NCBI RefSeq assembly: GCF_023716925.1
Contig: NZ_JAMQQG010000001.1
Coordinates: 1-64,000, forward strand
Origin: Frankia sp. R82
GTDB lineage: Bacteria; Actinomycetota; Actinomycetes; Frankiales; Frankiaceae
Direction: 5' to 3'
Length of the DNA stretch: 64,000 nt
Shown here: positions 24,856 to 41,193 of the stretch, in pieces
Position numbering within the stretch: position 1 is the first letter of the stretch
How the letters are laid out: each line of letters starts with the position of its first letter
The notes under the pieces: model-generated
Databases searched by the model: none
The model's input: the letters and a program-made list of their open reading frames with translations, nothing else
Told to the model about the DNA's origin: nothing
Position numbers and translations under genes: made by a program

Positions 24856-24917
24856 GTCCGGTTACCCCTTTGCACTCGTTACTGAAGGTCAAGGTCAGAC
24901 GGCAGACGATCGGTGCT

Positions 24918-27155
24918 TCAGGCCATGGCTCCCGGACGTCGCAGCGTCTGCTCAACCCGCTCCTGCTGATGTGGCAGCAGAGCGGGTTCCCGGGCGTCGA
25001 GCGAGCGCCGTAGCAGCGCGTCGGCCTGCGAATCCCGGCCGTGGGCCCGCTCCACCCCACTCGCGCGCCAGAGCACCTCCCCGCTGTTCGGCTCCGCGTC
25101 CAGCGCAGCGGCTGCCTCCCGGCCGGCTTCCTCCAAGCGGCCCAGTCGAGCCAGGACGAGAGCACGGGCCGCCCGCAGCAGCGCGGTACGGGCCAGGTCT
25201 GGAGACAGCCGGGCCAATCGTTCGAGATCCTCCAAAGCGGCGGCGTCGTCACCGAGCTCCGCGCGCAGCCGGCCCCGTCCGGCCAGCGCCGCGACCGCCC
25301 CGGGCGCTATTCCGAGAGCGGTCGAGTAGATCGCGGTGGCCGCCCACGGTTGTCCGCTGTACCACAGGGCCCGAGCGAGATCGGCCTGGACGTTCACGTC
25401 GCCGGGGAGCCGCAGGGAAGCGGCCTGGAGATCCTCGATCGCCCGTCCATACCAGCCGGCCTGCAGCAGCAGCCGCCCGACGGCAGCCAGCGTCCGACCC
25501 GAGGCCTCGGCATCGGGCAGGGCTTCGTAGAGACCGGCCGCTTCACGATAGCCCCCGCGGGCCGCCTCCAGCTGTTCATGAGCCTCGTCGATCTGCGCCC
25601 GCAGTTCGACCGTCCGGGCGAGCGTACGGACCCGTCGAAACGCCTCAGCGAACTCTGACGTGCCAACAGCACCGGTCTGAATGACGACCGGATCGCCGAG
25701 ACCGGGATCCGCCGACCCCTGGCGCAACGCCTCCGCGGCAAGCTCACCTGCTGCGGTCAGGTCGCCGTCGGCGAAATGGAGCAGCGCCGCGTTCAGCAGG
25801 TCATCGGCATCGGTCTCGGGGGCCGAGCCGCCCGCGCGAAGGCACTGCGGGAACGCCGCCTGAAGTGCCGGGACAAGGCGATCGTCAAACAGTTCGAAGC
25901 GGCGGGCACCGGAACGCTGTTCGCTGGCCAGGACGTACCGACCGGTGAGATCGTCGAGCACCGCGTTCGGCATACCGGCGGTGGACGCGATGCCCTCGTC
26001 GACGCTGCCCCGCCGGCCCCGCTCGGTGATGAAGGTACGAGTCAGCCAGGTGCGCACGAATGCGTCGTCGAGATTGTGCGCCTGGGCGACCGCCAGCAGC
26101 GCCGAGGTCAGGTAGCCACCCAGAGCTGCGTCCACGCCACCCGACGAGCCCAGGTCCGCAAGCGTGACCGAACCGTCCTCCACATCTGCGGGCACAGGTA
26201 CGTCCCTCGACGCATCCGCGGACGCAAGACCGCGAATCGCCGCGGCCAACAGGACCAGAAAGACCGGCTGTACCCGGTCGGCCACCAGAATCGATTCGGC
26301 CCCGGTGGCATCGATGACCCGACTGGTGCGTAGATCCTCGACACACGCCTCGACGACGCCCGGGCCCAGCCGGCGACCGCGGGCCCGCAGTGACTCGGCC
26401 AGAGCCATGCCCGCCGTTGGCAGGTCGAACGGCTCCACGGGCACCCGGGTTACCGGCAAACCGTTCGTGATGCGGCGCTCGAACCGGGCGAGCGCACCCA
26501 GCGCGTCGCTGCGCACCACCAGAAGCAGATTGAGCTGGGGTAGACCGGCCATGACCGCCGCTAGTACCTGTATGCATTGTTCGCGGTTCGCCTCCAGCCG
26601 CGGCGTGTCCGCCCGGAACAGATCGTCGAAATCGTCGATCGCGGCCAGAATCGGTCGACTCGCCCTGCGATGGTCCCCAGCTGTGCCGATCGTGGCGCCT
26701 CGCCCGCCACCGGTTTCCGACTCGGTGACACGGCGTAGCACGTCCAGCAGTGGGGACGATGGCTCGTCCGCCGACCAGGAGCGCAGCAGTGCGACCAGGA
26801 AGGGATTCGCGACATCAATCGAACCGTGCGCCGCGGCGGGGCTCGTGCCATCCGGTCCGGAATCAGCGGGCGGGGCCGTGCTTCCCGCGGATTCGCCCGG
26901 CTGGTCGAAATATCCGACGGGAAGAACGTTGGCTTCGACGGAGGCGAGGTTCGGCAGGATACCGGCCCGTAGCAGGGAGGACTTGCCAACCCCGGCCGAT
27001 CCGTGCAGGACCACAAGCCGGCAGCGCAGCCAGAGTGCCAGCACCTCATGGGTGGCCGCATCCCGACCGAAGAACACGCCGGCATCCCGTTCGAGGAGCG
27101 GGCCCAGTCCCGTACCGGGACCGGTATCCGCGCGGACCGACCGCAGGGAAACCAT
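24918..27155 (-). CDS. nSTAND-type NTPase with C-terminal TPR repeats
   Basis: A 745-residue STAND-class protein. The P-loop GSAGVGKSS is at residues 52-60, after ERDAGVFFGRDAATHEVLALW, the opening typical of the nSTAND1 group; Walker B is PILAAIDDFDDLF. The helical arm and winged-helix region reach about residue 450. From about residue 480 to the end are TPR-like repeats (for example AIEDLQAASLRLPGDVNVQAD and ALRLP..., EDLERLARLSPDL). Such proteins act as signal-sensing switches, often in antiphage or stress systems; no effector domain is fused. ATG 27155 has AGGTG eight bases upstream. It is adjacent and divergent to the Fxs locus, so a link is possible but unproven. Confidence 0.8.
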   Translation of the reverse strand: MVSLRSVRADTGPGTGLGPLLERDAGVFFGRDAATHEVLALWLRCRLVVLHGSAGVGKSSLLRAGILPNLASVEANVLPVGYFDQPGESAGSTAPPADSGPDGTSPAAAHGSIDVANPFLVALLRSWSADEPSSPLLDVLRRVTESETGGGRGATIGTAGDHRRASRPILAAIDDFDDLFRADTPRLEANREQCIQVLAAVMAGLPQLNLLLVVRSDALGALARFERRITNGLPVTRVPVEPFDLPTAGMALAESLRARGRRLGPGVVEACVEDLRTSRVIDATGAESILVADRVQPVFLVLLAAAIRGLASADASRDVPVPADVEDGSVTLADLGSSGGVDAALGGYLTSALLAVAQAHNLDDAFVRTWLTRTFITERGRRGSVDEGIASTAGMPNAVLDDLTGRYVLASEQRSGARRFELFDDRLVPALQAAFPQCLRAGGSAPETDADDLLNAALLHFADGDLTAAGELAAEALRQGSADPGLGDPVVIQTGAVGTSEFAEAFRRVRTLARTVELRAQIDEAHEQLEAARGGYREAAGLYEALPDAEASGRTLAAVGRLLLQAGWYGRAIEDLQAASLRLPGDVNVQADLARALWYSGQPWAATAIYSTALGIAPGAVAALAGRGRLRAELGDDAAALEDLERLARLSPDLARTALLRAARALVLARLGRLEEAGREAAAALDAEPNSGEVLWRASGVERAHGRDSQADALLRRSLDAREPALLPHQQERVEQTLRRPGAMA

Positions 27156-27242
27156 CACGCGCACACCTGATCACCACGTTCGCGTGGCCGGTATCCAGCA
27201 GGGAAGGGCGCATCCGCACCCAACTGGAAGGCTCTGTTCACG

Positions 27243-27368
27243 ATGATCGACATCAACCCGAATTTCGCCATGACAGCCACCCAAAATTCTCCGGAAATGG
27301 CCAGCGTGCGACCGCCCAGGCGGGACGAGCTACACACCAGTAAACAACGTGACGCAAATCCCCCTTGA
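27243..27368 (+). CDS. Possible 41-residue peptide of unknown function
   Basis: Begins MIDINPNFAMTATQNSPEMA and ends QRDANPP. Codon use (several AAT, AAA, CAA and TCT) is AT-richer than nearby genes. GGAAGG lies 11 bases upstream, a little far. No match to the Fxs precursors and no recognised family. It may be chance. Confidence 0.25.
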   Translation: MIDINPNFAMTATQNSPEMASVRPPRRDELHTSKQRDANPP

Positions 27369-27730
27369 TATTTCTCGACCAACGCCCCACGCAGGATATC
27401 GGACGTGCACCGCAACAGGCCAGGAGCAGCCGAAGGAGCAGGAGCAGCCGATGCACCGACGGGCGGCCAGCGGCAGCGACGACAAGGATGGGACAACCTC
27501 GTTGCCCTGCACGCGACCGGGGAAGCTTGTACGGTTTTCGGTACACCCGGACGGACATCGTCCACACACGCGGACGATGTCCACAAGATGTCGGCGAGGA
27601 CGGATGAGGCCCTGGTCCGAGGCACAGCCAGAGCAGCTGTACCCGATGCCCGCTTGACCTACAGGAGCGGAGTCGGTGAGGTAGCTCAAAAGCAAACAGC
27701 CGGGACGACGTCCTGGCAGGTTGAGGACAC

Positions 27731-27788
27731 GAGGGAAGCAGCGAAGCTTCCCTCCACCCACAATGGGGTGTAGTATAATGCACACCCC
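27731..27788 (+). promoter_or_regulatory. Twin hairpins with embedded TATAAT before the FxsT-like gene
   Basis: First hairpin: GAGGGAAGC (27731-27739) with GCTTCCCTC (27746-27754), a perfect 9-bp stem and 6-base loop. Second: GGGGTGT (27765-27771) with ACACCCC (27782-27788), whose 10-base loop holds TATAAT (27774-27779). They end 80 bases before the GTG at 27869. They may form an operator, terminator or attenuator. Confidence 0.55.
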
Positions 27789-27868
27789 GCAGGCGGCAAC
27801 GTTGATGACCGACGGCGCACCGCGAGGCAGCACGCTGCCGTGGTGGGTCGAGATTGCGGGGGTATAGA

Positions 27869-30451
27869 GTGGCCTCGGAGTTGGAGCCGGATCCGGTCCA
27901 GGAGAAGAGTTCCGACATTTCACTTTCCTGGGGCCGCAATGTTCCGGTCATCTGGGGGAATGTTCCGCCGCGGAACAAGAATTTCACCGGGCGAGCTGAT
28001 CTGCTCGTCGAGCTGCGGCGTCGGCTCGGCTCGGGCGATCTCGACGTAACCGCGGTACTACCGCACGCGCTCCAGGGTATGGGTGGGGTGGGCAAGACCC
28101 ATCTCGCCATCGAATATGCCTACCAGTATCAGAACGAATACGATCTGGTCTGGTGGATCCCGGCGGACCAGCATCTGCTGGTCCGATCCCATCTCGCGGC
28201 GTTGGCTGGCCGACTCGGTCTCATGCAGCCAAGCCCGCTGCGGGTGGAGGATGCCGCGGCCGCAGTGCTGGATGCGCTGCGCCGGGGCGAACCGTACCGG
28301 CGTTGGCTGCTCATCTTTGACAATGCCGACCAGCCCGAGACCGTTCGAAGCCTCATGCCACACGGGCCCGGCCATGTTCTCGTCACCTCGCGTAACCGGC
28401 AGTGGCAGGGCCTCGTCGATGCGCTGGAGGTCGACGTGTTCGCCCGGCAGGAGAGCCTGGAGTTTCTCCGCCGTCGGGTGCCGGGAATCAGCACTGTCGA
28501 TGCGGACCAGCTCGCCGAGGAGCTCGGAGATCTTCCCCTGGCGCTGGAGCAGGCCGGCGCGCTGCAGTTCGAGGCAGGAATGGAGGTCAGCGAATATCTC
28601 GACCTGCTGCGCACCGAATCCGGAAAGGTGCTGGCCGAGAACCGACCGATGGACTATCCGGCCCCGGTCGCCGCGGCTTGGAGTCTCTCGGTCAGTCGAC
28701 TCAAGGAGCAGGCTCCCTTCGCCCTCGAACTGCTCCGCCGATGTGCCTTTCTCGGTCCCGAACCGATCTCGCTGGAGATCCTGGACCGCGGCAAGTACAT
28801 TCTTGACTCCGAGTTCGGCACCGCCATGCGGGACCGTCTCCTGGTCAGCCGCGCCATGCGAGAGCTCGGCCGGTACGCCCTCGCCCGTATCGACCCAAGC
28901 CGCAAGACCGTCCAGGTCCACCGGCTCGTCCAGAAAATGATCGGCAATGACCTTTCGGACGAGGAGCGGCGCCGGCTGCGCGCGGAGGTCCATCAACTGC
29001 TGATTGCGGCCGACCCGGATGACCCCGGCGACCCGGAGAAATGGCCACACTTCGCCAAACTGCTGCCACACATCGTGCCGTCCGAGGTCTACACCGCCCA
29101 TTCTGTGCCAGGACGCCAGCTGCTCGAGCACATTGTCGGCTATCTCTTCGCCGTGGGCGACTTCACCACCGGCCTGGCCGAGGCGGACCGCGCCCTCGCC
29201 CGCTGGATGGCCGACTCCGGCAGCCACAATCCTGATGTGCTCGTCCTGCAGGGCATCAAGGCCGACATTCTCTGGGCGCTCGGCCGATACGAGGAAGCCT
29301 ACGAGCTGCGCCGGCCGACGCTGGATGCCATCACCGACGTCCTCGACGCGGACCACGAGGAAACCCTCGTCATCCTGAACGGCCACAGTGCGGACCTGCG
29401 CGCACGAGGCGATTTCCAGGGGGCACGCGATCTGGACGAGGATTCCCTGGATCGACACCGTCGCGTGTTCGGCGACGACAACCGCACCTTCAATGCGGCC
29501 AACAACCTGGCCATCGACTACAGCATGACCAGCGCTTACGAAGCCGCACTGGAACTGTGCCAGCAGACCCTGACCGAACGGCGGAACCTGTTCGGCCGTG
29601 ACGACCACTGGTGGGTCGCGTTCCAGGTGGCGGCGCTCGCCCGCTGCGAGCGGCAGGCGGGCCAGTACCTGAAAGCCGTGAGCACCGCGGAACAGGCCTA
29701 TCTGATCTACCTCGACCTGGTCGGTCGTCAGGTCCTGCCGCAGGACCACGTCCATGTACTTCTCCAGGCGAAAGATCTTTCGGTGGCCCGCCGGAAGGCC
29801 GGACGTTTCACCGAGGCCCTCGACCTCGCCGAGGTGGTGTACGCCCGGTACACGGACAGCCGGCAGTTCGGAGCTGGGCACCCGGACACTCTGGCCGCCG
29901 GAATCAACCTGGGTAACGCACAACGAGTCGCTGGCGATGCACAGGAGGCAGCCGACCGGATCGAAAAGACCGTGCAGCGTTACCGGGAGGTTCTTGGTCC
30001 AGATCATCCCTTCACCTATGGCTGCGATCTGAACCTCGCGCTGATTCACCGCCAGCTCGGGCGGGTCGAAGAGGCCCAACAGCTCCTGAAGCACGCTCTT
30101 TCCGGACTGGAGCGGCGCCTCGGCAGCGGCCATCACTACACCCTCACCTGTGTCACTAACCTGGCAACGGTGCGGGCGAGTCTCGGCGCTACCGACGAGG
30201 CACTGGTCATGGGTGAAGGAGCATTGCAGAGTTTTCGGGATCTGCTGGGGCCGGATCACCCGCACACCCTGGTCTGTGCGACCAACCTTGCGCTCGACAT
30301 GGCAGCGACGGGCCACGATGAGAAGGCCCAGGTTCTGACCGACGAGACGATGCGGCGATACCGTCGGGTCCTCGGTGAATCCCATCCGGACGTTCTGGCC
30401 GGGTTGCGCGGCGAACGCCTTGATTTCGATTTCGAGCCGCCCCCGCTCTGA
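27869..30451 (+). CDS. fxsT: NB-ARC/TPR protein of the FxSxx-COOH system (FxsT-like)
   Basis: An 860-residue STAND protein. PPRNKNFTGRADLL precedes the NB-ARC domain, with P-loop GMGGVGKTH near residue 70 and Walker B WLLIFDNADQPE. The winged-helix region ends near residue 390 and tandem TPRs fill the rest, many with DHPHTL/GHPDTL-type loops of the TPR_10/12 kind. It ends RGERLDFDFEPPPL, a tail also seen in the large protein at 36081-40085 and in FxsT proteins generally. GTG 27869 follows GGGGG by six bases; a TTG at 27854 would add five residues. It is convergent with the HExxH gene and lacks the ATPase and TIR parts of its larger relative, so it may be a sensor or scaffold. Confidence 0.85.
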   Translation: MASELEPDPVQEKSSDISLSWGRNVPVIWGNVPPRNKNFTGRADLLVELRRRLGSGDLDVTAVLPHALQGMGGVGKTHLAIEYAYQYQNEYDLVWWIPADQHLLVRSHLAALAGRLGLMQPSPLRVEDAAAAVLDALRRGEPYRRWLLIFDNADQPETVRSLMPHGPGHVLVTSRNRQWQGLVDALEVDVFARQESLEFLRRRVPGISTVDADQLAEELGDLPLALEQAGALQFEAGMEVSEYLDLLRTESGKVLAENRPMDYPAPVAAAWSLSVSRLKEQAPFALELLRRCAFLGPEPISLEILDRGKYILDSEFGTAMRDRLLVSRAMRELGRYALARIDPSRKTVQVHRLVQKMIGNDLSDEERRRLRAEVHQLLIAADPDDPGDPEKWPHFAKLLPHIVPSEVYTAHSVPGRQLLEHIVGYLFAVGDFTTGLAEADRALARWMADSGSHNPDVLVLQGIKADILWALGRYEEAYELRRPTLDAITDVLDADHEETLVILNGHSADLRARGDFQGARDLDEDSLDRHRRVFGDDNRTFNAANNLAIDYSMTSAYEAALELCQQTLTERRNLFGRDDHWWVAFQVAALARCERQAGQYLKAVSTAEQAYLIYLDLVGRQVLPQDHVHVLLQAKDLSVARRKAGRFTEALDLAEVVYARYTDSRQFGAGHPDTLAAGINLGNAQRVAGDAQEAADRIEKTVQRYREVLGPDHPFTYGCDLNLALIHRQLGRVEEAQQLLKHALSGLERRLGSGHHYTLTCVTNLATVRASLGATDEALVMGEGALQSFRDLLGPDHPHTLVCATNLALDMAATGHDEKAQVLTDETMRRYRRVLGESHPDVLAGLRGERLDFDFEPPPL

Positions 30452-30480
30452 GCTCCTCCCGCGTGGAGCTCGCTCGCGAC

Positions 30481-32523
30481 TCAGGGAACCCGGCCCACGG
30501 ATCCGCGTGGGACCGGCAGCCAGGCAGCGAGGGCCTCGGGGTCGACCCGGGTCCCGGTGAGGTTCTCAATGCCGTGATACACCGCGCGGACCAGTTCTGG
30601 TCGTTCCAGTAGCCGGCGGCCTGCGGCCGACGGGACGTCCCGCAGGCACAGGACGAGCCCGGCCCACGCGTCGAGATGGTCCGGATTCTGGGCTATTTCC
30701 TTTTTATATGCATGGGCGGCCACATCCAGTTGGTCGAAGCCGAAGGCCAGATCGGCCGGGGAAACCGCGGGGTCGACGTGCCGGTCGTCGAGGCTCCCAC
30801 CCATCTCAGCTGCACCGCTTTCCACCCCGTTCATCCCGGTAGCCTTGAACCCGGTCGGGTCGGCCAGCCGCCGGTGGATCAGGGCCAGGCGGGTGTTATG
30901 CACGAGGCCGCGGGCCGCCGGCACCGTCGTCGTACGGATCATCAGATCGGGCACGGCGGTTCCGTCCACCCATGCCTGAGCCAGACGGTCAACCTGTTCG
31001 GGCGCCGGTTCCAGATTGCGCAGTCGCCACAGCAGACGGGTGTCGGCGATCACCTGGTGAGCAAGCCGCAGCGGCACAGCCGGCACCGTCGTCCGTCGGT
31101 AGGCGGCAGCCGCGCTCTGCATACCTGCCACGAACCGCCGACCCAGCGGGGTCAGCTCGCCCGATGCCCGGACCTCGACGACAACCCGCCAGACTTCCTC
31201 TCGCCAGCGGGCGAACTCGAAGTGAGCGTGATTCGATCCCGCGTCAAGACGGCGGCAGGAGTCCCACAGGCCAACGAGACCGAGGAATGCATATGCTCCC
31301 TGCAACAATCCGGACAGCGGCCGAGGATCGCTGCGCCACGGCGCATAGAACAACCGGCTGCTCCCACTGTCGAAAAGATCCACGAGATCCAGTAGGGCAG
31401 AGAGCTTGCTGTGCTGGAACTCATGAACCAGGGCGGCCGCGAAGGAGAAACCGTCCTTGGGGAGAGTCATCGCCGGCCCGCCAAAGGCCTCGCCCGACGA
31501 CGCGCTCAGCTCCGCTTCCCGATCCGTCGGCCGCAACGGAAAGATTGCGGCCATGCCGCTGCCAATCGCCATGGCGCGCTGCGGGTCTGCCTCGGACAGC
31601 AGCCGCCATCCTTCGGTGAGCCGCTGTTGCCAGAGCTCGGCTGGTTCGCCGGCACCGCTGGATGCCACAGGAAGATCAAGCATCAACCGCGCCGGGTCAA
31701 GATCGTCTAAGACGATGGCGAGCTGGGCGGTGCCTGCCCCTGCGACGAGTCGGCGGACCGGGATAAAGCCGACCCGCGGCCCGTCCGGGATCCCCGTGGT
31801 CACCAACCCGCTGCCGGCCGGCCCCGCACCATCCGCTCCCACGTCGTCCGGCCCGGTGGCGTCTGGCGCTGTGCCGTCGGGCACCATCACGACCGAAGCG
31901 ATCGCGGCAGGCAGCGGCGTGACACCCGGCGCCGGTTCGCTGCCGGGCCGGCCCGCAGGAAGCGGGACGGTGCTCGAGGCATCCGTCTGAATGATCGCCA
32001 CACCCGGCGCCGCCGACAGCCGCATGACCCCGTCAGTCATGCTGGCCCTCGCCCAACCAGAGAAAGTTGCTGTTATCAGCCCACAGCCCGGCAGATACAG
32101 GCCGCCGTCCCGCAGCACAACCGTGACCTCCGCGGTGACACCGCTGCGCAGGGCTGCGACGGCGGCGAGCGCGCCCAGTCCCGCAAGGTCCTCCTCCAAG
32201 GGCACCGAGGCGGACACCGAACCACGCAACCGCCGCAGGCAGTGCATCGACCACAACCCGACGCCCGGTGACAGCAGGAGTGCGTCGACCACTGCCTGCG
32301 ACCGCTGCTGTGCCTGTGCGAGTACGGCATAACTATGCGCCACATCGCTTCGTGCCAGCAGGGCCGGGGCGCGCTGGGCCGTATCGTCCATGAGTGCACG
32401 CAGCACCAGTAGGCGACGGCTGAGCTGCGTCGCCCACAGCATCCGGACAATCTCCGGTCCGCCGCCGCCGTGGGCGAGCTCGTCGAAGGCCGCGCCCGGC
32501 AGCCGATGCCATCGCATGTTCAC
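30481..32523 (-). CDS. HExxH-domain peptide-modifying enzyme (probable alpha-ketoglutarate-type beta-hydroxylase)
   Basis: A 680-residue protein whose central motif HEFQH, in ALVHEFQHSKLSALLDLVDLF near residues 367-371, is the metal site of the HExxH domain found in radical-SAM RiPP loci. A third ligand may lie in the following helix region (SNHAHFEFARWREE). Known relatives are alpha-ketoglutarate-dependent beta-hydroxylases of cyclophane peptides; no protease activity is implied. The N-terminal 330 residues are helical and partly Pro/Ala-rich; the C-terminal part has LAFGFDQLDVAAHAYKKEIAQNP, a TPR-like pair. The GTG start overlaps the fxsB stop by four bases (GTGA), so it is translated with fxsB. 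Confidence 0.8.
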   Translation of the reverse strand: MNMRWHRLPGAAFDELAHGGGGPEIVRMLWATQLSRRLLVLRALMDDTAQRAPALLARSDVAHSYAVLAQAQQRSQAVVDALLLSPGVGLWSMHCLRRLRGSVSASVPLEEDLAGLGALAAVAALRSGVTAEVTVVLRDGGLYLPGCGLITATFSGWARASMTDGVMRLSAAPGVAIIQTDASSTVPLPAGRPGSEPAPGVTPLPAAIASVVMVPDGTAPDATGPDDVGADGAGPAGSGLVTTGIPDGPRVGFIPVRRLVAGAGTAQLAIVLDDLDPARLMLDLPVASSGAGEPAELWQQRLTEGWRLLSEADPQRAMAIGSGMAAIFPLRPTDREAELSASSGEAFGGPAMTLPKDGFSFAAALVHEFQHSKLSALLDLVDLFDSGSSRLFYAPWRSDPRPLSGLLQGAYAFLGLVGLWDSCRRLDAGSNHAHFEFARWREEVWRVVVEVRASGELTPLGRRFVAGMQSAAAAYRRTTVPAVPLRLAHQVIADTRLLWRLRNLEPAPEQVDRLAQAWVDGTAVPDLMIRTTTVPAARGLVHNTRLALIHRRLADPTGFKATGMNGVESGAAEMGGSLDDRHVDPAVSPADLAFGFDQLDVAAHAYKKEIAQNPDHLDAWAGLVLCLRDVPSAAGRRLLERPELVRAVYHGIENLTGTRVDPEALAAWLPVPRGSVGRVP

Positions 32524-33776
32524 CGGGCATGGACCCGCGCGCGTTCAAGGTCATGACGGACGCGTGCATCGATGTGCGTGATCAGGGCGAGCAGATCGGG
32601 ACAGTAGACCGATCTGTTGCGAAACCCGTCGCCGCGACGGTACCGATGCGGATAGAAGCCACCGCCACAGACGTTGCGCACTCTACACTCGCCGCACTGC
32701 TCCCCCAGCGCCGCGCGGCCGATCTGGCGGGCAATCACGCCGGGATGGCGCAGTGCCTGGTCGAACCCGTCATTCAGCACGTTCAGGCCGGTGGAAGCCG
32801 CACCGTGATAGGCCGACTTGAGCGCATCCACCTGTTCGATGGAGCCATCCGATTCGACCACGATCACCGTGGACGGAGAGAGACCCACCGTCTCGAGCCG
32901 GCTGTGCCCACCGAGCAGCAGCACCATGATCTCCTGAAAGATCCGAATTTCGACCTCCTCGCCCGCCGCGTCATACCACCGGTCGAACAACGGGACCAGC
33001 CAGTCCGCATAGGGGGTGAGCTGCTCGTCCGCGGGGCGCCCGGGCGGGCGGACCGTCCAGTTTCCGTGCGGCAGGAGGAAGTCGACGGCCGGTGGCTCCC
33101 ACGTGAGCAGGCTTTCGTAGACCTCGAGCGGATCCGACAACGGATCGATGACACCAAGCAGCCCGGCGAAGACGGGCCGAAACCGGGCCGAGGTCAGCCG
33201 ATGCAGACCTGCGGTCGTCTCCCGTAGACTGTCCGCACCATCGTGACGCGGTCGCCGCCGGTTGTGGTGTGTCAGGGCACCGTCCAGACTCACCCCGACC
33301 TGGATGTTCTCGGCCAGGCAGGCCTCGAGAATCCGATCGCTCATCAGCGTGCCGTTGGTCTGGACGCTGAACTGAACGGAAACGAAAGGCTCAACGACAT
33401 CGCGGAAAGTCCGGGCGACCGCGCGAAGAGAGTCTGCGCCGGCCAGCAGCGGCTCACCGCCGTGCAGGACGATCTCGACCGACTCGAGGCCGTGTCGTTG
33501 AGCATGATCTAGAATCTTGCCGGCCGTTACCGTGACGATTTCCTCGCTCATCGCCACAGGCTGGTCACGCCAGCTCTCGTCGACCTGACTGTAAACATAG
33601 CAATAGGTACACGACAGATTGCAGCGGCTTCGGACCTTGAGGACGAACTGCCGGAATGGCGTCGGCACCCACCCGGCCGACCGGGGTGCGAGGTGACCGG
33701 GCACACCGTATGGCCAGCCGACCGCGGCGCCAGTGTCCATGTGTGGTGTCACAGAGGTGTTTCGAACTGCCGTCAA
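32520..33776 (-). CDS. fxsB: FxsB-type radical SAM/SPASM peptide maturase
   Basis: A 418-residue radical SAM enzyme. CNLSCTYC gives the 4Fe-4S/SAM triad at residues 52, 56 and 59, next to LHGGEPLLA and SVQTNGTLM typical of peptide maturases. The SPASM-like C-terminus has cysteines near residues 361, 364, 370 and 392 (CGECRVRNVC...VYC) for auxiliary clusters. FxsB-family enzymes join a Phe ring to the beta carbon of the residue two positions on, giving a three-residue cyclophane; here F-x-S is present in both precursors. TTG 33776 overlaps the precursor stop (TTGA), so coupling is likely; ATG 33740 is an alternative start that loses 12 residues. Order: precursor, fxsB, HExxH gene. Confidence 0.93.
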   Translation of the reverse strand: MTAVRNTSVTPHMDTGAAVGWPYGVPGHLAPRSAGWVPTPFRQFVLKVRSRCNLSCTYCYVYSQVDESWRDQPVAMSEEIVTVTAGKILDHAQRHGLESVEIVLHGGEPLLAGADSLRAVARTFRDVVEPFVSVQFSVQTNGTLMSDRILEACLAENIQVGVSLDGALTHHNRRRPRHDGADSLRETTAGLHRLTSARFRPVFAGLLGVIDPLSDPLEVYESLLTWEPPAVDFLLPHGNWTVRPPGRPADEQLTPYADWLVPLFDRWYDAAGEEVEIRIFQEIMVLLLGGHSRLETVGLSPSTVIVVESDGSIEQVDALKSAYHGAASTGLNVLNDGFDQALRHPGVIARQIGRAALGEQCGECRVRNVCGGGFYPHRYRRGDGFRNRSVYCPDLLALITHIDARVRHDLERARVHAR

Positions 33777-33946
33777 CCGCCAAGGTGAATGCGGGAGCTG
33801 AACCCGCTGGACGGAGCCTCCCGCTGCATCGCCTCACGGCAGACACGCAGCTGGGCGGAACGCAATCGTGGGTTACGCGCTTCTTCCTCCGAGGGGAGCC
33901 TGGTCACCCAGGGCTGGTACGTATCGATGTCGGACGACTCGTTCAC
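33773..33946 (-). CDS. fxsA: Fxs-type RiPP precursor 1 (GFSSRI-HLGG)
   Basis: A 57-residue peptide with an acidic, helical leader (RLPSEEEARNP, then RSAQLRVCREAMQRE) and the C-terminus GFSSRIHLGG. F49-S50-S51 is the predicted cyclophane site. The GTG at 33946 has an excellent AGGAGGT site six bases upstream, which decides this start in a frame that otherwise stays open to 34474. It sits directly before fxsB with a 4-base overlap. Canonical FxsA ends at F-x-S-x-x; this one has four extra residues. One cysteine in the leader (residue 36) is unusual. The mature product cannot be stated without cleavage data. Confidence 0.82.
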   Translation of the reverse strand: MNESSDIDTYQPWVTRLPSEEEARNPRLRSAQLRVCREAMQREAPSSGFSSRIHLGG

Positions 33947-34355
33947 CCGTGGACCTCCTCCGCCGTCCAGGTCCTCCAATCTATCCCGGCCGACGGTGTG
34001 GCGCGCGCATTCCGATCGACCGGGTCCGGCGGGCGCAACGGCGATGCCCGTCCGTGGACCGGTGGTCGACCGGGCGTGGGAACCCGTCGTTCGCCGGTTT
34101 CGCCTGCCCGCACCGGGCCGGGTGGCGATGCTCGTGGGCCGCTCGGAGTGCCGGAGCGCAACGGTTGCAGGATCCCCGACGGCCGTCCAACCGGCTCGCC
34201 GCCGCCCGATCGATGCAATCATCGGGAGGACAACGAACGCGGACGAGAGGCCGGGACGTAGACTCTCTTCGCACTTAGTAGTGAGAGTAAGGGGCCGAGC
34301 GCACGGTACTCCGGGATGACTCGATCCACCGCACCGGGAAGACAGGGGGTACCGG
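33947..34355. promoter_or_regulatory. Divergent promoter region of the Fxs locus
   Basis: 409 bases between precursor 1 (minus) and the leader ORF/fxsC (plus). At 34262-34288 ACTCTC and GAGAGT flank CACT-TAGT-AGTG, an imperfect palindrome that could be an operator for the plus-strand genes. The longer open frames are low in recognisable content, and no gene is called. Confidence 0.5.
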
Positions 34356-34451
34356 GTGGCAAACAAGATCGACAGAATCCTCCGGCAGGATTCACCGTCG
34401 CGGTCGGGAAAGAACGGCGGCGGCGAATCCACGGCCCGTGACCGCCGCTGA
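34356..34451 (+). CDS. 31-residue leader ORF overlapping fxsC
   Basis: GTG 34356 lies six bases after AGGGGG and begins MANKIDRILRQDSPSRS; the frame closes at TGA 34449-34451, 14 bases inside fxsC. The fxsC start (GTG 34438) has no good ribosome site of its own. The arrangement suggests that ribosomes finishing this ORF reinitiate at fxsC. It is basic and Gly-rich near the end, without the FxSRI motif, so it is not a third precursor. Confidence 0.5.
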   Translation: MANKIDRILRQDSPSRSGKNGGGESTARDRR

Positions 34452-36084
34452 GCCCGTGGCGGCGGGCGAGCCACCGCTCTACTTCTTTATCAGCTACGCT
34501 CGGCCGGACAGCAACGACGGCACCTTCCTCCTGCGCTTCTTCCGAGACCTACGTCACGAGGTCAGGGTGCGCTGTGGCCACGCCCGGGCCGAGGAGGTCG
34601 GTTTTCTCGACCGGTCGAGCCTGCGGCCGGGGGACGACTGGTCGGCGGAGCTCGTCGCCGCGCTGGCTCGGGCGCGGACCTTTGTCGCGATCTGCTCGCC
34701 CACCTTCTTCGCCAGTGAGAACTGCGGACGCGAGTGGGAGTTCTTCGACGACCGGCTTCGGCAGCTCGAAGAGAAAGGAAGCAGTCGCGCTCCGCTCATC
34801 CTGCCGATTATGTGGATCCCGATGCACCCGCCGCCCATCCTCGCCGAGCTGCAGTACAGCCACGAGGACCTGGGCGCGGACTACGCCCGCTACGGCCTGC
34901 GGTACCTGCTGCAGCTGAAGCGCAACCGGGACCAGTACCAGCACTTTCTCGTGATGTTGGCGGACCGCATAGTCGAGCTCGCCCTGGCCATAGAGCTTCC
35001 GCCGTTGACGGATCTTCCGCACTTTCCGGAGATCGGCAACGCATTCGAACGGCGGGACCGGCGCTCCGGCCGCCCCGGCTCCGCAGAGCCTTCCGGACCG
35101 AGGCCTGCGGAACTGATGCCTTCGGGCTCGACAGCCGCGGAGCCGATGCTTCCGGGGTTGACCCGGCGGCCCCGCGCGGAGGCGGGTGGAGAAGCCGCGG
35201 CGCAGGAGGCCCGGCCGGACCCGGAGGACGCAGCGGCACCGGGCTCGATCGGCGGCGCTCGCGGCGAGATGACAGCCACGGCCGACCAGGTTGGCGGCGC
35301 GCAGTCCACCAGCCAGGACCAGGAAACGGACACCGAGCAGGAGCACGCCGTCGGGGACCCGGCTACCGAAAAACCCACCGGTGGACCAGTGGAGGGGTAT
35401 TCTGACAACCATGGTCGGCAGTTGCCACCCGTCGACACCAAAGACCGGCTCGCGAGTCTCGGCATGGTAAGTGGAGTCAGCGGGCCGAAGCGCGTCACTT
35501 TCGTGCTGGTGGTCACTTCCAGCAGCCAGCTCGCCAACGTGCGACAGCACCTTGTCTACTATGGGCACGACTTCGCCGACTGGAAGCCCTACCACCCGCA
35601 CCCCGATCGGCGGGTCTGCGTTGCGGCGCAATTTGTCGCTGCCCGCCAGGAGATGGAATCCCGGATCGAGATGCTCACCCCGAGCGTTGTCGGCCTGCTC
35701 GAACAGTCACGGAATAACAACGAGGTTGTCGTCTTCATCATCGATGTGTGGACGGCGACGATGGAACCTTTTCGCTCCGAGCTGCGCGCGTACGACCGGA
35801 GAAACGAGCCGACCACCGGTGTCATGGTGCCGTGGAATCCGGACGACGAAGAGACGCGGGAGCATCACGATCGGTTGCGGGCCGAGCTCGCCGAGACCCT
35901 GTCGAACAACATGATCCGGTTGGACGGTCTTTTTCAGGACGAGGTCACCGCGCACCAGTTCGAAGAGGCGCTGGCGAAGATTATCGCCGGCATACAGGCG
36001 CGTATCTTCGCCCGGAAGAGAGCCTTTCGCCGTCCGGCGGGCTCTCGTCCCCGCCCGCGCCCGTCGATCGAAGGGCCGCGGTGA
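34438..36084 (+). CDS. fxsC: FxsC, TIR-like protein of the FxSxx-COOH system
   Basis: A 548-residue protein. The N-terminus is a TIR-like domain: YFFISYARPDSND, FLDRSSLRPGDDWS, ARTFVAICSPTFFAS and NCGREWEFF, where the glutamate corresponds to the catalytic residue of TIR NADases. A Pro/Ala/Gly-rich linker of about 130 residues follows (roughly residues 210-340), then a second domain from about 345 with FVLVVTSSSQLANVR and VVVFIIDVWTATMEPFRSEL, and a basic tail. This two-domain layout matches FxsC. Whether NAD is cleaved is untested. The stop overlaps the next start by four bases (GTGA), so the two are coupled. Confidence 0.88.
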   Translation: MTAAEPVAAGEPPLYFFISYARPDSNDGTFLLRFFRDLRHEVRVRCGHARAEEVGFLDRSSLRPGDDWSAELVAALARARTFVAICSPTFFASENCGREWEFFDDRLRQLEEKGSSRAPLILPIMWIPMHPPPILAELQYSHEDLGADYARYGLRYLLQLKRNRDQYQHFLVMLADRIVELALAIELPPLTDLPHFPEIGNAFERRDRRSGRPGSAEPSGPRPAELMPSGSTAAEPMLPGLTRRPRAEAGGEAAAQEARPDPEDAAAPGSIGGARGEMTATADQVGGAQSTSQDQETDTEQEHAVGDPATEKPTGGPVEGYSDNHGRQLPPVDTKDRLASLGMVSGVSGPKRVTFVLVVTSSSQLANVRQHLVYYGHDFADWKPYHPHPDRRVCVAAQFVAARQEMESRIEMLTPSVVGLLEQSRNNNEVVVFIIDVWTATMEPFRSELRAYDRRNEPTTGVMVPWNPDDEETREHHDRLRAELAETLSNNMIRLDGLFQDEVTAHQFEEALAKIIAGIQARIFARKRAFRRPAGSRPRPRPSIEGPR

Positions 36085-39000
36085 CGCCTCTCATGAATGA
36101 TCACGCCGCAGGCAGGATCATCACGTTCTATTCCTACAAGGGTGGCACGGGCCGGTCGATGGCACTGGCGAATGTGGCCTGGTTGCTTGCCATGGCCCGC
36201 CAGCGGGTCCTGGCCGTCGACTGGGACCTGGAGGCACCGGGCCTGCATCGGTACTTCCATCCGTTCCATCACGACCCGGAGCTGCGGTCGACGCGTGGCA
36301 TCATGGACATGATCTGGGATTTCACCGCCATGGTGATGTCGCCGGAGTCCGACGGGGACACCGACTGGTTCGACCGGATGACTTCGATCGCACCGTACGC
36401 CGTTTCGCTGGACTGGCCCTTTCCCGGAGATGGCACCATCGACCTGGTCTGCTCCGGCCGCCATGATGCCACCTACTCCCGCAAACTGAGTTCCTTCGAC
36501 TGGGACAACTTCTATGAGTCACACAACGGTGCCGACTTTATCGACGCCCTGGGCGAGAACATGCGGTCGTCCTACGACTGGATCCTCATCGACAGCCGGA
36601 CGGGGCTGAGCGACACAGCCGGAATCTGTACGGTCGGGCTGCCGGACACGGTGGTCAACTGTTTCACCCTCAACACCCAGAGCATCGAGGGAGCAGCTGC
36701 CGTCGCGCGATCGATCGAGGCGCAGAAAAAGATTCGCCGGATCGCCCTGCTACCCGTCCCCATGCGTGTGGAGGACGGGGAACAGAAGAAGCTCGAGCTC
36801 GGTCGAGACCTGGCACGTGCAACATTCGACCAGTATCTTCACGATCTCAGCGGTGCGGAGAAGGATCGCTACTGGGGAGATGTCGAGGTTCCCTACAAAC
36901 CGTTTTACGCCTACGAGGAGATACTGGCGGTCTTCGGTGACCGACCGTTCCAGGAAGGCACCCTGCTGGCCGCCTACGAGCGGCTCACCACCTACCTCAC
37001 CGACCGGGAGATCCACACGTTCCGCCCGATGGAGGAACGGGTGCGCCGGCGCGCGCTCGCCGTCTTCGAGCGCACGGTGGCTCCGATCCCAACCGAGATC
37101 GTGGTCAGCCACGTTGCGAGCGACCGGAGCTGGGCGGACTGGATCTCGGTTGAGCTGACCGGCGTTGGCTTCGCCGTCAGTCTGGAGCAGGTCAGCGACC
37201 TCGGTCAGTCCCTGGATCCGGCGCTGGTTTATCTCCCCGATCGGGGATTCGACCTCCTCGGCGACGGCGACGATGCTGGCACGCCCGCGCCCACCGGCCC
37301 CATCCGGATGTTTCGCACAGTGGCGCTGGTCTCGTCCGCCTACCTGGCCACCGAGGCCGCGCGGAAGCGGTGGCGTGCGGCCGTCTCCGATGACCCGGAC
37401 GGGCTGGGGGGCCCGCTGCTGCCGGTGCGCATTGAGGATTTCCAGCTTCCGGCCGAGTTCGCCGGCCGTGCCTACACCGACCTCGTGGGCCTCGATGAGG
37501 GGCCGGCCCGCCAGACGCTACTGGCCCGCGCAGGCCGGCCGCTGCGGCCCGCAGCCCGACTTTCCCCGCGCGCCACCGACGCGGGTGCCGTTCGCTTTCC
37601 TGGCTCGCCGCCCCAGGTCTGGCGCGGGGTGCCGGAACGTAATCCCAGCTTCATCGGCCGGGAGGCCCTGTTGCTGCGGCTGCGGGACCGTTACCTCGGC
37701 GCCGATGGCCGGCCGGCCAACGTCCAGGTGCTGCAGGGGCTCGCGGGCGTCGGGAAGACCCAGCTCGCGGTGGAGTACGTCTTCCGGTTCGGCGCATCCT
37801 ACGATCTGGTGTGCTGGATCGGCTGCGACCAGGTCGACCTGGTCCGCAGCAGCCTCACCCGGCTGGCCACTGACCTGCGCCTGCCCGAGCAGGCGGACCG
37901 GGAGATGTCGGACGAGGTGATCAACGCCCTGCGTCGCGGCGAGCCGTTCCGGCGCTGGCTGCTTATCTTCGACAACGCCGACGCCCCGGACGACGTGACC
38001 GCCCTGATTCCGCCTGGCCCGGGACATGTTCTGGTCACCTCGCGCAACCAGCGCTGGCGAGGCCGCTACGAGCAGGTCGAGGTCGGGATGTTCAGCCGCG
38101 AGGAGAGCATCACGCTGCTGCAACGTCGGGCGCCGGCCCTTACGTCGGAGGTGGCGACGCAGCTCGCGGAGGCGTTGGGTGACCTGCCGCTGGCCCTCGA
38201 ACACGCAGGTGCCTGGCATGCGGAAACGGGTATGGCGCCGGAGCGCTATCTGGAACTGCTGCACGACAGCCCCCGCCCGCTGTTGCTCGAAGGCGAGATC
38301 CCGACCTACTCCGGCCCTGTGGCCACCACCTGGCTGCTGTCCATGGACCGACTGCGCAGCCAGCTCCCGATGGCGGCCCGCCTGGCCGAGCTGTGCGCTT
38401 TCTTCGGGCCGGATCCAATCAGCCTCGAGCTTTTCAACGGAGAGGGCCTGGAGCTGCTGGCCGACCCCGTCGATGAGGAGTTCCGTGATCCTCTGGTGCT
38501 GAGCGCCGCGGTCCGTCAGATCAGCGAGCACGCGCTGGTGCACATCGATCACCGTAACCAGCGCCTGGCCATGCACCGGCTGGTCCAAGCGGTGATCCGA
38601 GATAGTCTACCGCTCGACCGGCGGGAGCAGGTCCGCCATCGGGTCCACGCACTGCTGGCCGCGGCCGATCCCGGCGAGTCCCGACTGCCGGAGAACTGGC
38701 CGCGCCATGCCATGATCAGGCCGCATCTGGTGCCTTCCGGCGCCGTCCGATGCACGCATCGACGGGTGGCCACCCTGGTCATTCACCAGGTCCAGTGGCT
38801 CTACGAGCAGCGTGACCACACCGGTTGCCAGAGCCTCGCGAGCACCACTCTCGACATCTGGCAAGGTCTGTTCGGGGACAATGACGAGCGGACTCTGACC
38901 CTCGCTCTCGATCTCGCCGACAGCCTCCGTGCCCAGGGTTTCGCGGAGCGCGCCCGGGGGCTTGACCAACCCGCGTTCGACCGGCTCTCCCGGATCTTCG

Positions 39001-40085
39001 GCAGCAATCACCAGCTGACCCTGCGTGCGGGCCGGGCCCTGGGCGGAGATCTCAGGGGTCTCGGCGAATATCAGGAGGCACTGCGGCAGGACGAGAACAC
39101 ATATGCCCGATACCGGGATGTCGGCAGCCTCGACGACCAGGGCGCCATCATGCTCGCCAACAACATCGCGGTGTCCCTGCGGCTGACCGGCGAGTTCCGC
39201 CTCGCGCTGGAGATTGGAGAGGATGTTTACACCAGGCAACGACGGACGGTGGGCGAAAACGCGATCTACGCACTCCAGAGCGCCGACAGCCACGCCCGAG
39301 ATCTGCGAGAGTGCGGTCGCTACCGAGAATCGGTGGATTTGCTGCTGGACACCCTCACCCGTTGCCGACGTGTGCTCGGCGATAATCATCCTGACACTCT
39401 TCGTTCACTGCGGAACTACGCCACCTCGCTGCGCCGGGCCGGCCAGCTACGCGCCGCCTGGCACACTTCCCAGGAAGCACTGCAAAAGTTCCAGGCTCTG
39501 GTCGGCGAGAACAGCTCGGAGAGCATCGCCGCCGCCATCGGTCTCGTCAACGACCTGTGCCTCACCGGTGATCCGGTCGGTGCCCGCCGGTTGGCGGAAA
39601 AAACCCACCGACGAGCCAAGCGACGCCTGGGCGCGGACAGCCTCTACACCCACGCCGCCGCGAACGCGTTGATGGTGGCCACCCGAGGCTCGGGCGAGCC
39701 GACCGCGGCCGCCGCCGTGGGCGAGCCGACTGTTGCCCGGCTGCGCGCGCTACTACCGGACGGACACCCCTTTTCGTCCTATTGTGCAGCGAACCTGGCG
39801 AACTGCCGCTACGACGCGGACGAGGCCGCCGTTGCCCGTACGCTGGACGAAGAGGCTGCGGCACGGCTGCGGGACCGGCTGGGCGATGATCACCCCAATA
39901 CACTGCTGGTCAACGCCAATCTGGCAGTGGATCTGGCTGCCACAGGTGAGCCCGGCACGGCCGAGACTCTGCGTACCAGCGTGCTGGCTTCGCTCGCCGA
40001 GTCGATCGGCGCCGACCATCCGCTTGTGGGAGCCGTCGGCCGCGGCGAACGCGTAGATCTGGAAATCGACCCGCCGCCGCCCTGA
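36081..40085 (+). CDS. fxsT: Large FxsT-type protein: MinD-like ATPase, TIR, NB-ARC, TPR
   Basis: A 1334-residue multidomain protein. Residues 1-330 are a MinD/ParA-like ATPase with variant P-loop YKGGTGRS (residues 19-26; arginine replaces the usual Walker lysine) and WILIDSRTGLSDTA. Residues about 335-480 form a degenerate TIR domain (IPTEIVVSHVASDRSWADWI). NPSFIGREALLLRLRD near 520 opens an NB-ARC domain with P-loop GLAGVGKTQ near 552 and Walker B WLLIFDNADAPDD. TPRs fill about 860-1310, ending RGERVDLEIDPPPP. GTG 36081 is set by the overlap with fxsC; ATG 36093 is a close alternative. The architecture is that of FxsT of the Fxs RiPP system; the role of the ATPase-TIR half is unknown. Confidence 0.9.
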   Translation: MTPLMNDHAAGRIITFYSYKGGTGRSMALANVAWLLAMARQRVLAVDWDLEAPGLHRYFHPFHHDPELRSTRGIMDMIWDFTAMVMSPESDGDTDWFDRMTSIAPYAVSLDWPFPGDGTIDLVCSGRHDATYSRKLSSFDWDNFYESHNGADFIDALGENMRSSYDWILIDSRTGLSDTAGICTVGLPDTVVNCFTLNTQSIEGAAAVARSIEAQKKIRRIALLPVPMRVEDGEQKKLELGRDLARATFDQYLHDLSGAEKDRYWGDVEVPYKPFYAYEEILAVFGDRPFQEGTLLAAYERLTTYLTDREIHTFRPMEERVRRRALAVFERTVAPIPTEIVVSHVASDRSWADWISVELTGVGFAVSLEQVSDLGQSLDPALVYLPDRGFDLLGDGDDAGTPAPTGPIRMFRTVALVSSAYLATEAARKRWRAAVSDDPDGLGGPLLPVRIEDFQLPAEFAGRAYTDLVGLDEGPARQTLLARAGRPLRPAARLSPRATDAGAVRFPGSPPQVWRGVPERNPSFIGREALLLRLRDRYLGADGRPANVQVLQGLAGVGKTQLAVEYVFRFGASYDLVCWIGCDQVDLVRSSLTRLATDLRLPEQADREMSDEVINALRRGEPFRRWLLIFDNADAPDDVTALIPPGPGHVLVTSRNQRWRGRYEQVEVGMFSREESITLLQRRAPALTSEVATQLAEALGDLPLALEHAGAWHAETGMAPERYLELLHDSPRPLLLEGEIPTYSGPVATTWLLSMDRLRSQLPMAARLAELCAFFGPDPISLELFNGEGLELLADPVDEEFRDPLVLSAAVRQISEHALVHIDHRNQRLAMHRLVQAVIRDSLPLDRREQVRHRVHALLAAADPGESRLPENWPRHAMIRPHLVPSGAVRCTHRRVATLVIHQVQWLYEQRDHTGCQSLASTTLDIWQGLFGDNDERTLTLALDLADSLRAQGFAERARGLDQPAFDRLSRIFGSNHQLTLRAGRALGGDLRGLGEYQEALRQDENTYARYRDVGSLDDQGAIMLANNIAVSLRLTGEFRLALEIGEDVYTRQRRTVGENAIYALQSADSHARDLRECGRYRESVDLLLDTLTRCRRVLGDNHPDTLRSLRNYATSLRRAGQLRAAWHTSQEALQKFQALVGENSSESIAAAIGLVNDLCLTGDPVGARRLAEKTHRRAKRRLGADSLYTHAAANALMVATRGSGEPTAAAAVGEPTVARLRALLPDGHPFSSYCAANLANCRYDADEAAVARTLDEEAAARLRDRLGDDHPNTLLVNANLAVDLAATGEPGTAETLRTSVLASLAESIGADHPLVGAVGRGERVDLEIDPPPP

Positions 40086-40110
40086 TCCGCCCAGCCAGCC
40101 GACGTCTCAC

Positions 40111-40133
40111 CGCCGACGGCATCTCGGTCGGCG
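40111..40133. terminator. Hairpin between convergent FxsT and precursor 2
   Basis: CGCCGAC (40111-40117) pairs with GTCGGCG (40127-40133) around a 9-base loop in the 53-base gap between the two stop codons. A bidirectional terminator is likely. Confidence 0.45.
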
Positions 40134-40138
40134 ACGCG

Positions 40139-40324
40139 TCAGGACAGCTCGGGGGCGATGCGGGACATGAATCCCGCAGCGGGCGTGGCCGGATTTTCCG
40201 CGTCTCTCTCCACTCGCAGGACGGCTCGGGCCAGCGCCGCGTTCGACAACGTGTCGAGGGTGGCGAGACCGACGTTGGATAGATCGGGCAACCCCGTCTC
40301 GATCTCGTCCGGCCAGCCGACCAT
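40139..40324 (-). CDS. fxsA: Fxs-type RiPP precursor 2 (GFMSRI-APELS)
   Basis: A 61-residue peptide beginning MVGWPDEIETGLPDL, a typical FxsA leader, continuing with TLSNAALARAVLRVERD and ending AAGFMSRIAPELS. F52-M53-S54 is the predicted cyclophane site. The GFxSRI block is shared with precursor 1, but the tail is five residues and unrelated in sequence. The ATG at 40324 is chosen because it gives the family-like leader; GTG 40363 is possible. The preceding ribosome site is a GC-rich G run rather than a clean AGGAGG. It lies 6.2 kb from fxsB, convergent with the large FxsT-type gene, and has its own short upstream region, so it is probably controlled separately. Confidence 0.75.
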   Translation of the reverse strand: MVGWPDEIETGLPDLSNVGLATLDTLSNAALARAVLRVERDAENPATPAAGFMSRIAPELS

Positions 40325-40464
40325 GCGTCCGCCCGCCCCCGTTCCTACCTGTTCTGACCGCACACTGACATATGCAGCGTACGGCCACTGCTCGCACCCA
40401 TCTGGAGGTGGCCCGACCGCCAGCCCAAATTTCTGCGGCACGACGTCACCGAACCAGTGGCCGG

Positions 40465-41193
40465 TCACTGTTCGAAGCCGCATAGCAGGCCGGTGTAGGC
40501 CTTGACCGGAGGTGGAGCGTACTCCCCGCGACGACTTGTGTGCAGACCGAGAGCGGCGAGTCCGGTGACCATCGCGGTGGCGGTCGAGACGCCATCGATC
40601 ACGGGGAGACCAAGGTCTGCGGACAACAGGGTGCATAGATTAGCCATACCGGCACAGCCCAGGACAATGACATCGGCGCCGTCGTCGTCACGGGCCGCGC
40701 GGCACTCGGCGAGGATGCGGTCCGGCGCGCACGGCTTTGCCTCCAAGTCAAGGACTGGGATTTCGCAGGCTCGCACGCTGACGCAGGTGGATCGCAGGCC
40801 GTAACGATCGACGAGCTCGCGTGCGCGTCCGCGGGTGCGGTCCAGCGTGGTGACGACGCTGAATGCCCGGCCGAGGATGGACGCGGCCCGCATCGCCGCC
40901 TCGGCGATGCCGAGCACCGGGCCGGTGGCGAGTTCACGGGCGGCGTCGACACCCGGATCACCGAAGCAGGCAATCACGTAGCCGGCGGCGCCAGCGGCCT
41001 CCCCCGCGGCGATCTCGCTGAGGATGCCCGGGACGCTGAGGGCCTCGTCATAATGGCTCTCAATGGAGGCCGGGCCCATCGCCGGGGTGACGGCCTCGAC
41101 CTGCACGCCTGGTCCGGCGGCGAGGCAGGCCGATTCGCCGATCAGCTTGGTCATGGCCTGAGTGGTGTTCGGATTGATGACCCGGATGAGCAT
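40465..41193 (-). CDS. Hydantoin/Asp-Glu racemase-family protein
   Basis: A 242-residue cofactor-independent racemase of the hydantoin racemase (HyuE-like) group. The two catalytic cysteines are visible: VIACFGDPG and VIVLGCAGMANL. The start MLIRVINPNTTQAMTKLIGE is typical of the family. ATG 41193 is a good start. It ends the operon of an NCS1 permease, 130 bases downstream of it on the same strand, which suggests uptake and racemisation of hydantoin, allantoin or a related compound. No hydantoinase or carbamoylase is in the window. Confidence 0.88.
   Translation of the reverse strand: MLIRVINPNTTQAMTKLIGESACLAAGPGVQVEAVTPAMGPASIESHYDEALSVPGILSEIAAGEAAGAAGYVIACFGDPGVDAARELATGPVLGIAEAAMRAASILGRAFSVVTTLDRTRGRARELVDRYGLRSTCVSVRACEIPVLDLEAKPCAPDRILAECRAARDDDGADVIVLGCAGMANLCTLLSADLGLPVIDGVSTATAMVTGLAALGLHTSRRGEYAPPPVKAYTGLLCGFEQ

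Follow-up and report, generated by a model that had tools for sequence, protein, structure and literature searches.

A two-precursor Fxs-type island in Frankia as a possible peptide-gated STAND/TIR conflict system

An island of 15.6 kb with eight genes, two of which encode small precursor peptides, occupies positions ~24856-40464 of the 64,000-nucleotide window analysed here (Frankia sp. R82, contig NZ_JAMQQG010000001.1, positions 1 to 64,000). It is tentatively read as a variant of the Fxs system of actinobacteria that has two precursors and works inside the cell as a peptide-gated STAND/TIR conflict system, leading from a cyclophane-bearing ribosomally synthesised and post-translationally modified peptide (RiPP) to the control of a TIR domain. 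The general Fxs system is already known, and the original prediction, which had recognised an Fxs-type cyclophane locus in this stretch, was right in its observation and in its general assignment: both precursors, the radical SAM/SPASM enzyme FxsB, FxsC, the HExxH protein and the protein with ATPase, TIR, NB-ARC and TPR regions (here T1) are all present where it placed them. What is new is the definition of the eight-gene island, its empty site in a relative, the pairing of orthologous precursors across 11 genomes, peptide cores that bear tails or stand in tandem, and a TIR glutamate that is kept in FxsC and lost in T1.

In the proposed mechanism, FxsB would act on both precursors (FxsA1 and FxsA2), closing a three-residue cyclophane between the Phe and the Ser of F-x-S, and the stand-alone HExxH enzyme would then oxidise the peptide, most likely by β-hydroxylation, though it might also shorten the C-terminal tail oxidatively. 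No transporter, peptidase or recognisable immunity gene is found among the identified genes of the island, and the mature peptide therefore most probably remains intracellular. There the TPR arms of the STAND proteins T1 and T2 would sense it, either as a ligand or as a licensing signal, and these proteins would govern the FxsC TIR domain, which is intact and a probable NADase; under attack or stress the outcome would be dormancy, cell death or signalling. The final steps, the binding of the mature peptide to the STAND TPR domains and the control of the FxsC TIR enzyme, are speculative.

FxsA1 (57 aa; 33773-33946, reverse strand) has a GTG start and a ribosome-binding site, GGAGGAGG, and its C-terminal end reads SSGFSSRIHLGG; the F-S-S core (Phe49-Ser50-Ser51; 33794..33802, reverse strand), where a Phe-to-Ser cyclophane is predicted, is followed by the tail R-I-H-L-G-G. 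FxsA2 (61 aa; 40139-40324, reverse strand) is convergent with T1 and ends in AAGFMSRIAPELS, with an F-M-S core (Phe52-Met53-Ser54; 40163..40171, reverse strand) and the tail R-I-A-P-E-L-S. When hidden Markov models (HMMs) built only from the homologous precursors of other genomes, with the window excluded, were searched against all 1064 stop-to-stop open reading frames of the window, the top two frames were exactly these two precursors (E 4e-18 and 2e-6 with the leave-one-out HMM; next best 0.6). The eight-gene block, with both precursors, also occurs in 10 other Frankia and Parafrankia genomes, among them Frankia torreyi CpI1, F. canadensis, F. tisae, Parafrankia soli and Parafrankia sp. EUN1f, giving 11 two-precursor loci (the window, L052, L054, L055 and L057-L063). 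In every one of the 11, one precursor adjoins fxsB and the other lies beyond T1 and convergent with it; F-x-S is kept in all 22 precursors, even though precursor pairs average only 41-47% identity. Both precursors are thus genuine and of long standing. A shared core motif, similar leaders and a single FxsB for both would be compatible with A1 and A2 being a single peptide in duplicate, neither copy having a function of its own, but this is unlikely in view of the way all 11 loci keep them distinct in both place and sequence, the preference of each window copy for the HMM of its own position (FxsA1, 30.4 bits, E 1.6e-8, with the A1 HMM and 15.4 bits with the A2 HMM; FxsA2, 56.0 bits, E 1.7e-16, with the A2 HMM and 40.4 bits with the A1 HMM) and the separation of A1 and A2 branches in a tree, with modest support.

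The C-terminal ends set the window precursors apart from the canonical form. After FxSRI they continue for four residues in FxsA1 (HLGG) and five in FxsA2 (APELS), whereas both precursors of L055, L057 and L061 stop two residues past Ser, as in the canonical FxSxx-COOH arrangement. In keeping with these tails, FxsA2 scores 24.1 bits with TIGR04268, below the cut-off of 28, and FxsA1 gives no match to it; the window peptides are hence variants rather than canonical FxSxx-COOH precursors. The motif GFxSRI, by which the original prediction named such precursors, shrinks on comparison to G-F-x-S, the R being specific to the window and the relatives carrying SSI, SSV, SSA and others. Tandem F-x-S cores are seen in the A1 precursors of L058 (8908-9339; GFNSSLAFTSALSAL), L062 (8844-9347; GFQSSVGFNSQISTP) and L063 (10594-10851; GFTSSAGFNSSLSAP), an arrangement that suggests two cyclophanes per peptide.

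The block (24856..40464) is exactly enclosed in the window by a glutamate-decarboxylase-like gene (23440-24855) and an Asp/Glu racemase gene (40465-41193). Decarboxylase and racemase genes also enclose the matching block in L062, and in the Frankia genome L103 the two flanking genes are only 133 bp apart and the block is absent, so that the limits of the island can be set at ~24856-40464 and L103 represents the empty site. In three further Frankia genomes (L104-L106), reading frames whose translations resemble acyl-CoA dehydrogenases adjoin the decarboxylase gene at this position, and the chromosomal site of the island is therefore variable. A promoter and terminator scan returned no signal exceeding shuffles. 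The carriers, Frankia and Parafrankia, form root nodules and the site is fixed on the Frankia chromosome, as might be expected if the island served signalling in Frankia development or symbiosis and had nothing to do with defence; such a role is doubtful, given that the block is carried by only about half of 13 Frankia genomes, that it is cleanly absent from one of them at the matching site and that related loci occur in the Micromonosporaceae.

The proteins proposed for sensing and execution differ in what they have preserved. FxsC (34438-36084, forward strand) consists of an N-terminal TIR domain and the FxsC C-terminal domain (NF040588, 170.6 bits against a cut-off of 130; TIGR04276, 114.5 against 55), the latter being rare, with occurrences in 5 of 396 genomes from across the phylum. 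Its TIR domain (TIR_2, 48.9 bits) has E99 and W100 (CGREW, a C-x-x-E-W motif) invariant in 11 of 11 homologues, and from its position in the motif Glu99 is the probable catalytic residue. T1 (36081-40085, forward strand) combines a KGGVGR-ATPase-like region, a degenerate TIR domain, NB-ARC and TPR (NF040586, 881 bits against 300, with matches to NF047398, TIR_2 and NB-ARC); the catalytic-Glu position of its TIR domain is lost in all 11 loci, where R or another residue is found, and its N-terminal ATPase has a KGGTGRS loop in all 11. The original prediction regarded the locus as complete, but it had overlooked two STAND genes. One encodes T2, a second NB-ARC-TPR protein of the FxSxx system (27854-30451, forward strand; NF040586, 958 bits against 300), which has an intact P-loop, GMGGVGKTHLA, shows 67-72% identity in the 10 other two-precursor loci and is also kept in most single-precursor FxsB/HExxH loci; the NB-ARC P-loops of T1 and T2 are both intact in the window. 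The other, the left-most gene of the island, encodes an nSTAND1 NTPase with C-terminal TPRs (24918-27164, reverse strand; Pfam nSTAND1, 85.7 bits), and all 10 of the other two-precursor loci have a counterpart beyond T2, as do, with a weaker match (30-35%), most FxsB/HExxH loci that carry one precursor. These patterns are consistent with a division of labour in which T1 and T2 would be STAND sensors and scaffolds and FxsC the active TIR enzyme. Contig C334 of the window's own genome encodes another C-terminal domain of the FxsC type (85 bits; L092, 9033-10373), away from the fxs genes found, in a 1237-codon open frame beside a gene that by eye resembles a MoxR-type AAA ATPase.

RiPP enzymes often serve antibiotics, the post-translational chemistry is elaborate and darobactin-type cross-linked peptides are themselves antibiotics, all of which would suit an exported antibiotic or signal peptide whose STAND and TIR genes merely regulate or protect the producer. 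This alternative has a low probability: the 15.6 kb bounded by the empty site hold no transporter, peptidase or immunity gene, the three STAND genes and one TIR gene exceed the biosynthetic genes in number, and similar loci with HExxH, FxsT and leader peptide (L066-L071) exist without FxsB.

For the maturation enzymes, the conflict-system reading draws on their family membership. FxsB (32520-33776, reverse strand) scores 422.5 bits with TIGR04269 against a cut-off of 370 and retains the radical SAM motif C52xxxC56xxC59 and SPASM cysteines 361, 364, 370 and 392; among solved structures, the radical SAM domain of ChlB comes closest to it (9gm3, E 4.5e-79). For MscB, a triceptide enzyme of the FxsB family, formation of a link from Phe C4 to Ser C-beta has been reported (PMC11002830), and with this precedent a Phe-Ser cyclophane on the F-x-S core of the window precursors is predicted on strong family grounds, in agreement with the cyclophane locus originally proposed. 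The substrates of MscB and FxsB have the F-x-S motif in common and differ in that the window provides two precursors and some relatives tandem cores.

The HExxH gene (30481-32523, reverse strand) encodes a stand-alone protein of the α-ketoglutarate (αKG)-HExxH-type peptide hydroxylase family with C-terminal TPR-like helices (TIGR04267, 179.8 bits against 40); the H367, E368 and H371 residues of its metal motif, HEFQH (31411..31425, reverse strand), are invariant in 21 homologues. Its structural model (mean predicted local distance difference test, pLDDT, 83.9) aligns 408 residues with SjiH-Ni (22ob), at Z 31.7, root-mean-square deviation (rmsd) 2.8 and 32% identity, and 313 with the ChlB HExxH domain (8s5f), at Z 20.6 and rmsd 3.0, matches that support an αKG-dependent oxygenase rather than a peptidase. 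Inactivation through the third metal-ligand position, Gln408 in place of the His of ChlB-HExxH, was considered and rejected, as the crystallised SjiH also has Gln there and the residue is near-invariant in homologues. The codon for Gln408 lies at 31300-31302, and Gln occupies this position in nearly all Frankiaceae HExxH proteins; a 2-His-1-Gln iron site is possible in the proteins that bear it. SjiH and ChlBH (22ob, 8s5f) pair a cyclophane enzyme with an αKG-HExxH oxygenase, as the window does, except that there the two are fused in one chain and here they are separate genes. The original assignment of the protein as an αKG hydroxylase thus stands as regards the family, whereas hydroxylation or tail trimming of the window peptides themselves is predicted less firmly, by extension from relatives that hydroxylate His, Asp, Phe, Gln and Pro (PMC13060819) and from two, PflC/PosC, that also cleave the backbone and remove a C-terminal tail (PMC12636437). 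That the HExxH protein is instead a peptidase releasing the C-terminal peptide of the precursor, as Kaur et al. (2020; PMC7159879) propose in calling it a zincin-like metallopeptidase and as backbone cleavage by PflC/PosC would allow, is quite improbable in the face of the strong structural match to SjiH and αKG-dependent ChlB-HExxH, the αKG-dependent oxygenase activity of characterised family members and the occurrence of HExxH with tail-less precursors.

The HExxH gene is a regular partner of FxsB, so that the refuting outcome named in the original prediction, HExxH never accompanying Fxs genes, did not arise. Across 58 related genomes, HExxH lies within 4 kb of 28 of the 35 FxsB genes, adjoining 27 of the 28 accompanied by an FxsA-like peptide and one of the seven without, a difference (Fisher p 3e-5) that is only indicative because the genomes are related. 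Near six of the seven FxsB-like genes without HExxH no precursor was found; in L036, L040, L042, L043, L045 and L046, genes of the FxsB family score above the cut-off, and the neighbourhood holds no HExxH gene and no recognisable FxsA. The converse is seen in L066-L071, where HExxH and NB-ARC-TPR genes stand without FxsB beside FxsA-like leader peptides that have no F-x-S (ending, for instance, in RFGGYST or SGFSKQGKLS), and HExxH chemistry without a cyclophane is therefore implied.

The island can be compared with several described systems. The canonical Fxs system (TIGR04268, TIGR04269, TIGR04276, NF040586), exemplified by L089-L091 in large-genome relatives that belong to another family within the class, probably Streptomyces, shares FxsB, FxsC, the KGGVGR-ATPase/TIR/NB-ARC/TPR protein and a small F-x-S precursor with the window. 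It differs in having one precursor, ending at FxSxx, and an FxsB fused to an HExxH-derived domain, in agreement with the 'inactivated' FxsBH form of NCBI, with no intact HExxH found; the window adds a separate intact HExxH, a second precursor, a second NB-ARC-TPR protein, the nSTAND1 gene and tails past the motif. The single-precursor FxsB and HExxH loci (L032-L034, L037-L039, L044, L047-L051 and L056) share FxsB, an intact HExxH and usually a T2-type NB-ARC-TPR protein and nSTAND1; they differ in their one precursor, in most cases ending exactly in AGFQSSI, and in that no FxsC gene was detected in them. Conflict systems in which FxSxx peptides are accompanied by AP-ATPase-TPR and inactive MinD/ParA proteins were described independently by Kaur et al. 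(2020; PMC7159879), with the prediction that the peptide of the family is a toxin or a signal. Their stand-alone peptide-processing systems share with the window the FxSxx peptide, the rSAM-SPASM enzyme, the HExxH protein and an AP-ATPase with an inactive MinD/ParA domain, and the two precursors, second AP-ATPase-TPR protein and nSTAND1 gene of the window are not described in the passages cited.

Several observations weigh against a peptide-gated conflict system and temper the confidence placed in it. The link between peptide and STAND proteins is only postulated, and a house exporter or peptidase elsewhere in the genome could release the peptide. Furthermore, the island keeps a fixed chromosomal site within Frankia rather than belonging to a shuffling defence island, and the system is not among the models of PADLOC, whose only hits were to the viperin-type rSAM superfamily (FxsB) and PDC-M28B (the ATPase region of T1). 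The AlphaFold2 model of FxsC, from an 11-row alignment, is too poor for its TIR active site to be assessed (mean pLDDT 41.5). Lastly, in the Micromonosporaceae loci L086-L088 only one precursor was detected beside two proteins of the T1 type, on which account one precursor per STAND protein was rejected as a general rule. The precursors of these loci (L086, 16370-16576; L087, 15188-15421; L088, 16451-16675) end in FNNYV, FNNFM and FSNYV, with Asn at the third core position, so that an F-x-N cyclophane is possible beside their FxsB-like enzymes. For the window itself, a two-channel immune module can be envisaged, in which FxsB and HExxH would mature both peptides, A1 being read by T2 and A2 by T1, an FxsC-T1-FxsA2 half would have been added to an older nSTAND1-T2-HExxH-FxsB-FxsA1 unit still standing alone in relatives, and both channels would converge on the FxsC TIR domain; this scheme is distinctly unlikely.

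Naturally bounded, matched by a relative in which the site is empty, and with a single maturase for its two conserved precursors, the 15.6 kb island offers a compact test system for the role of Fxs peptides. If it were true that a self-made cyclophane gates a receptor resembling those of the nucleotide-binding leucine-rich repeat (NLR) type, RiPP chemistry would be joined to bacterial innate immunity.

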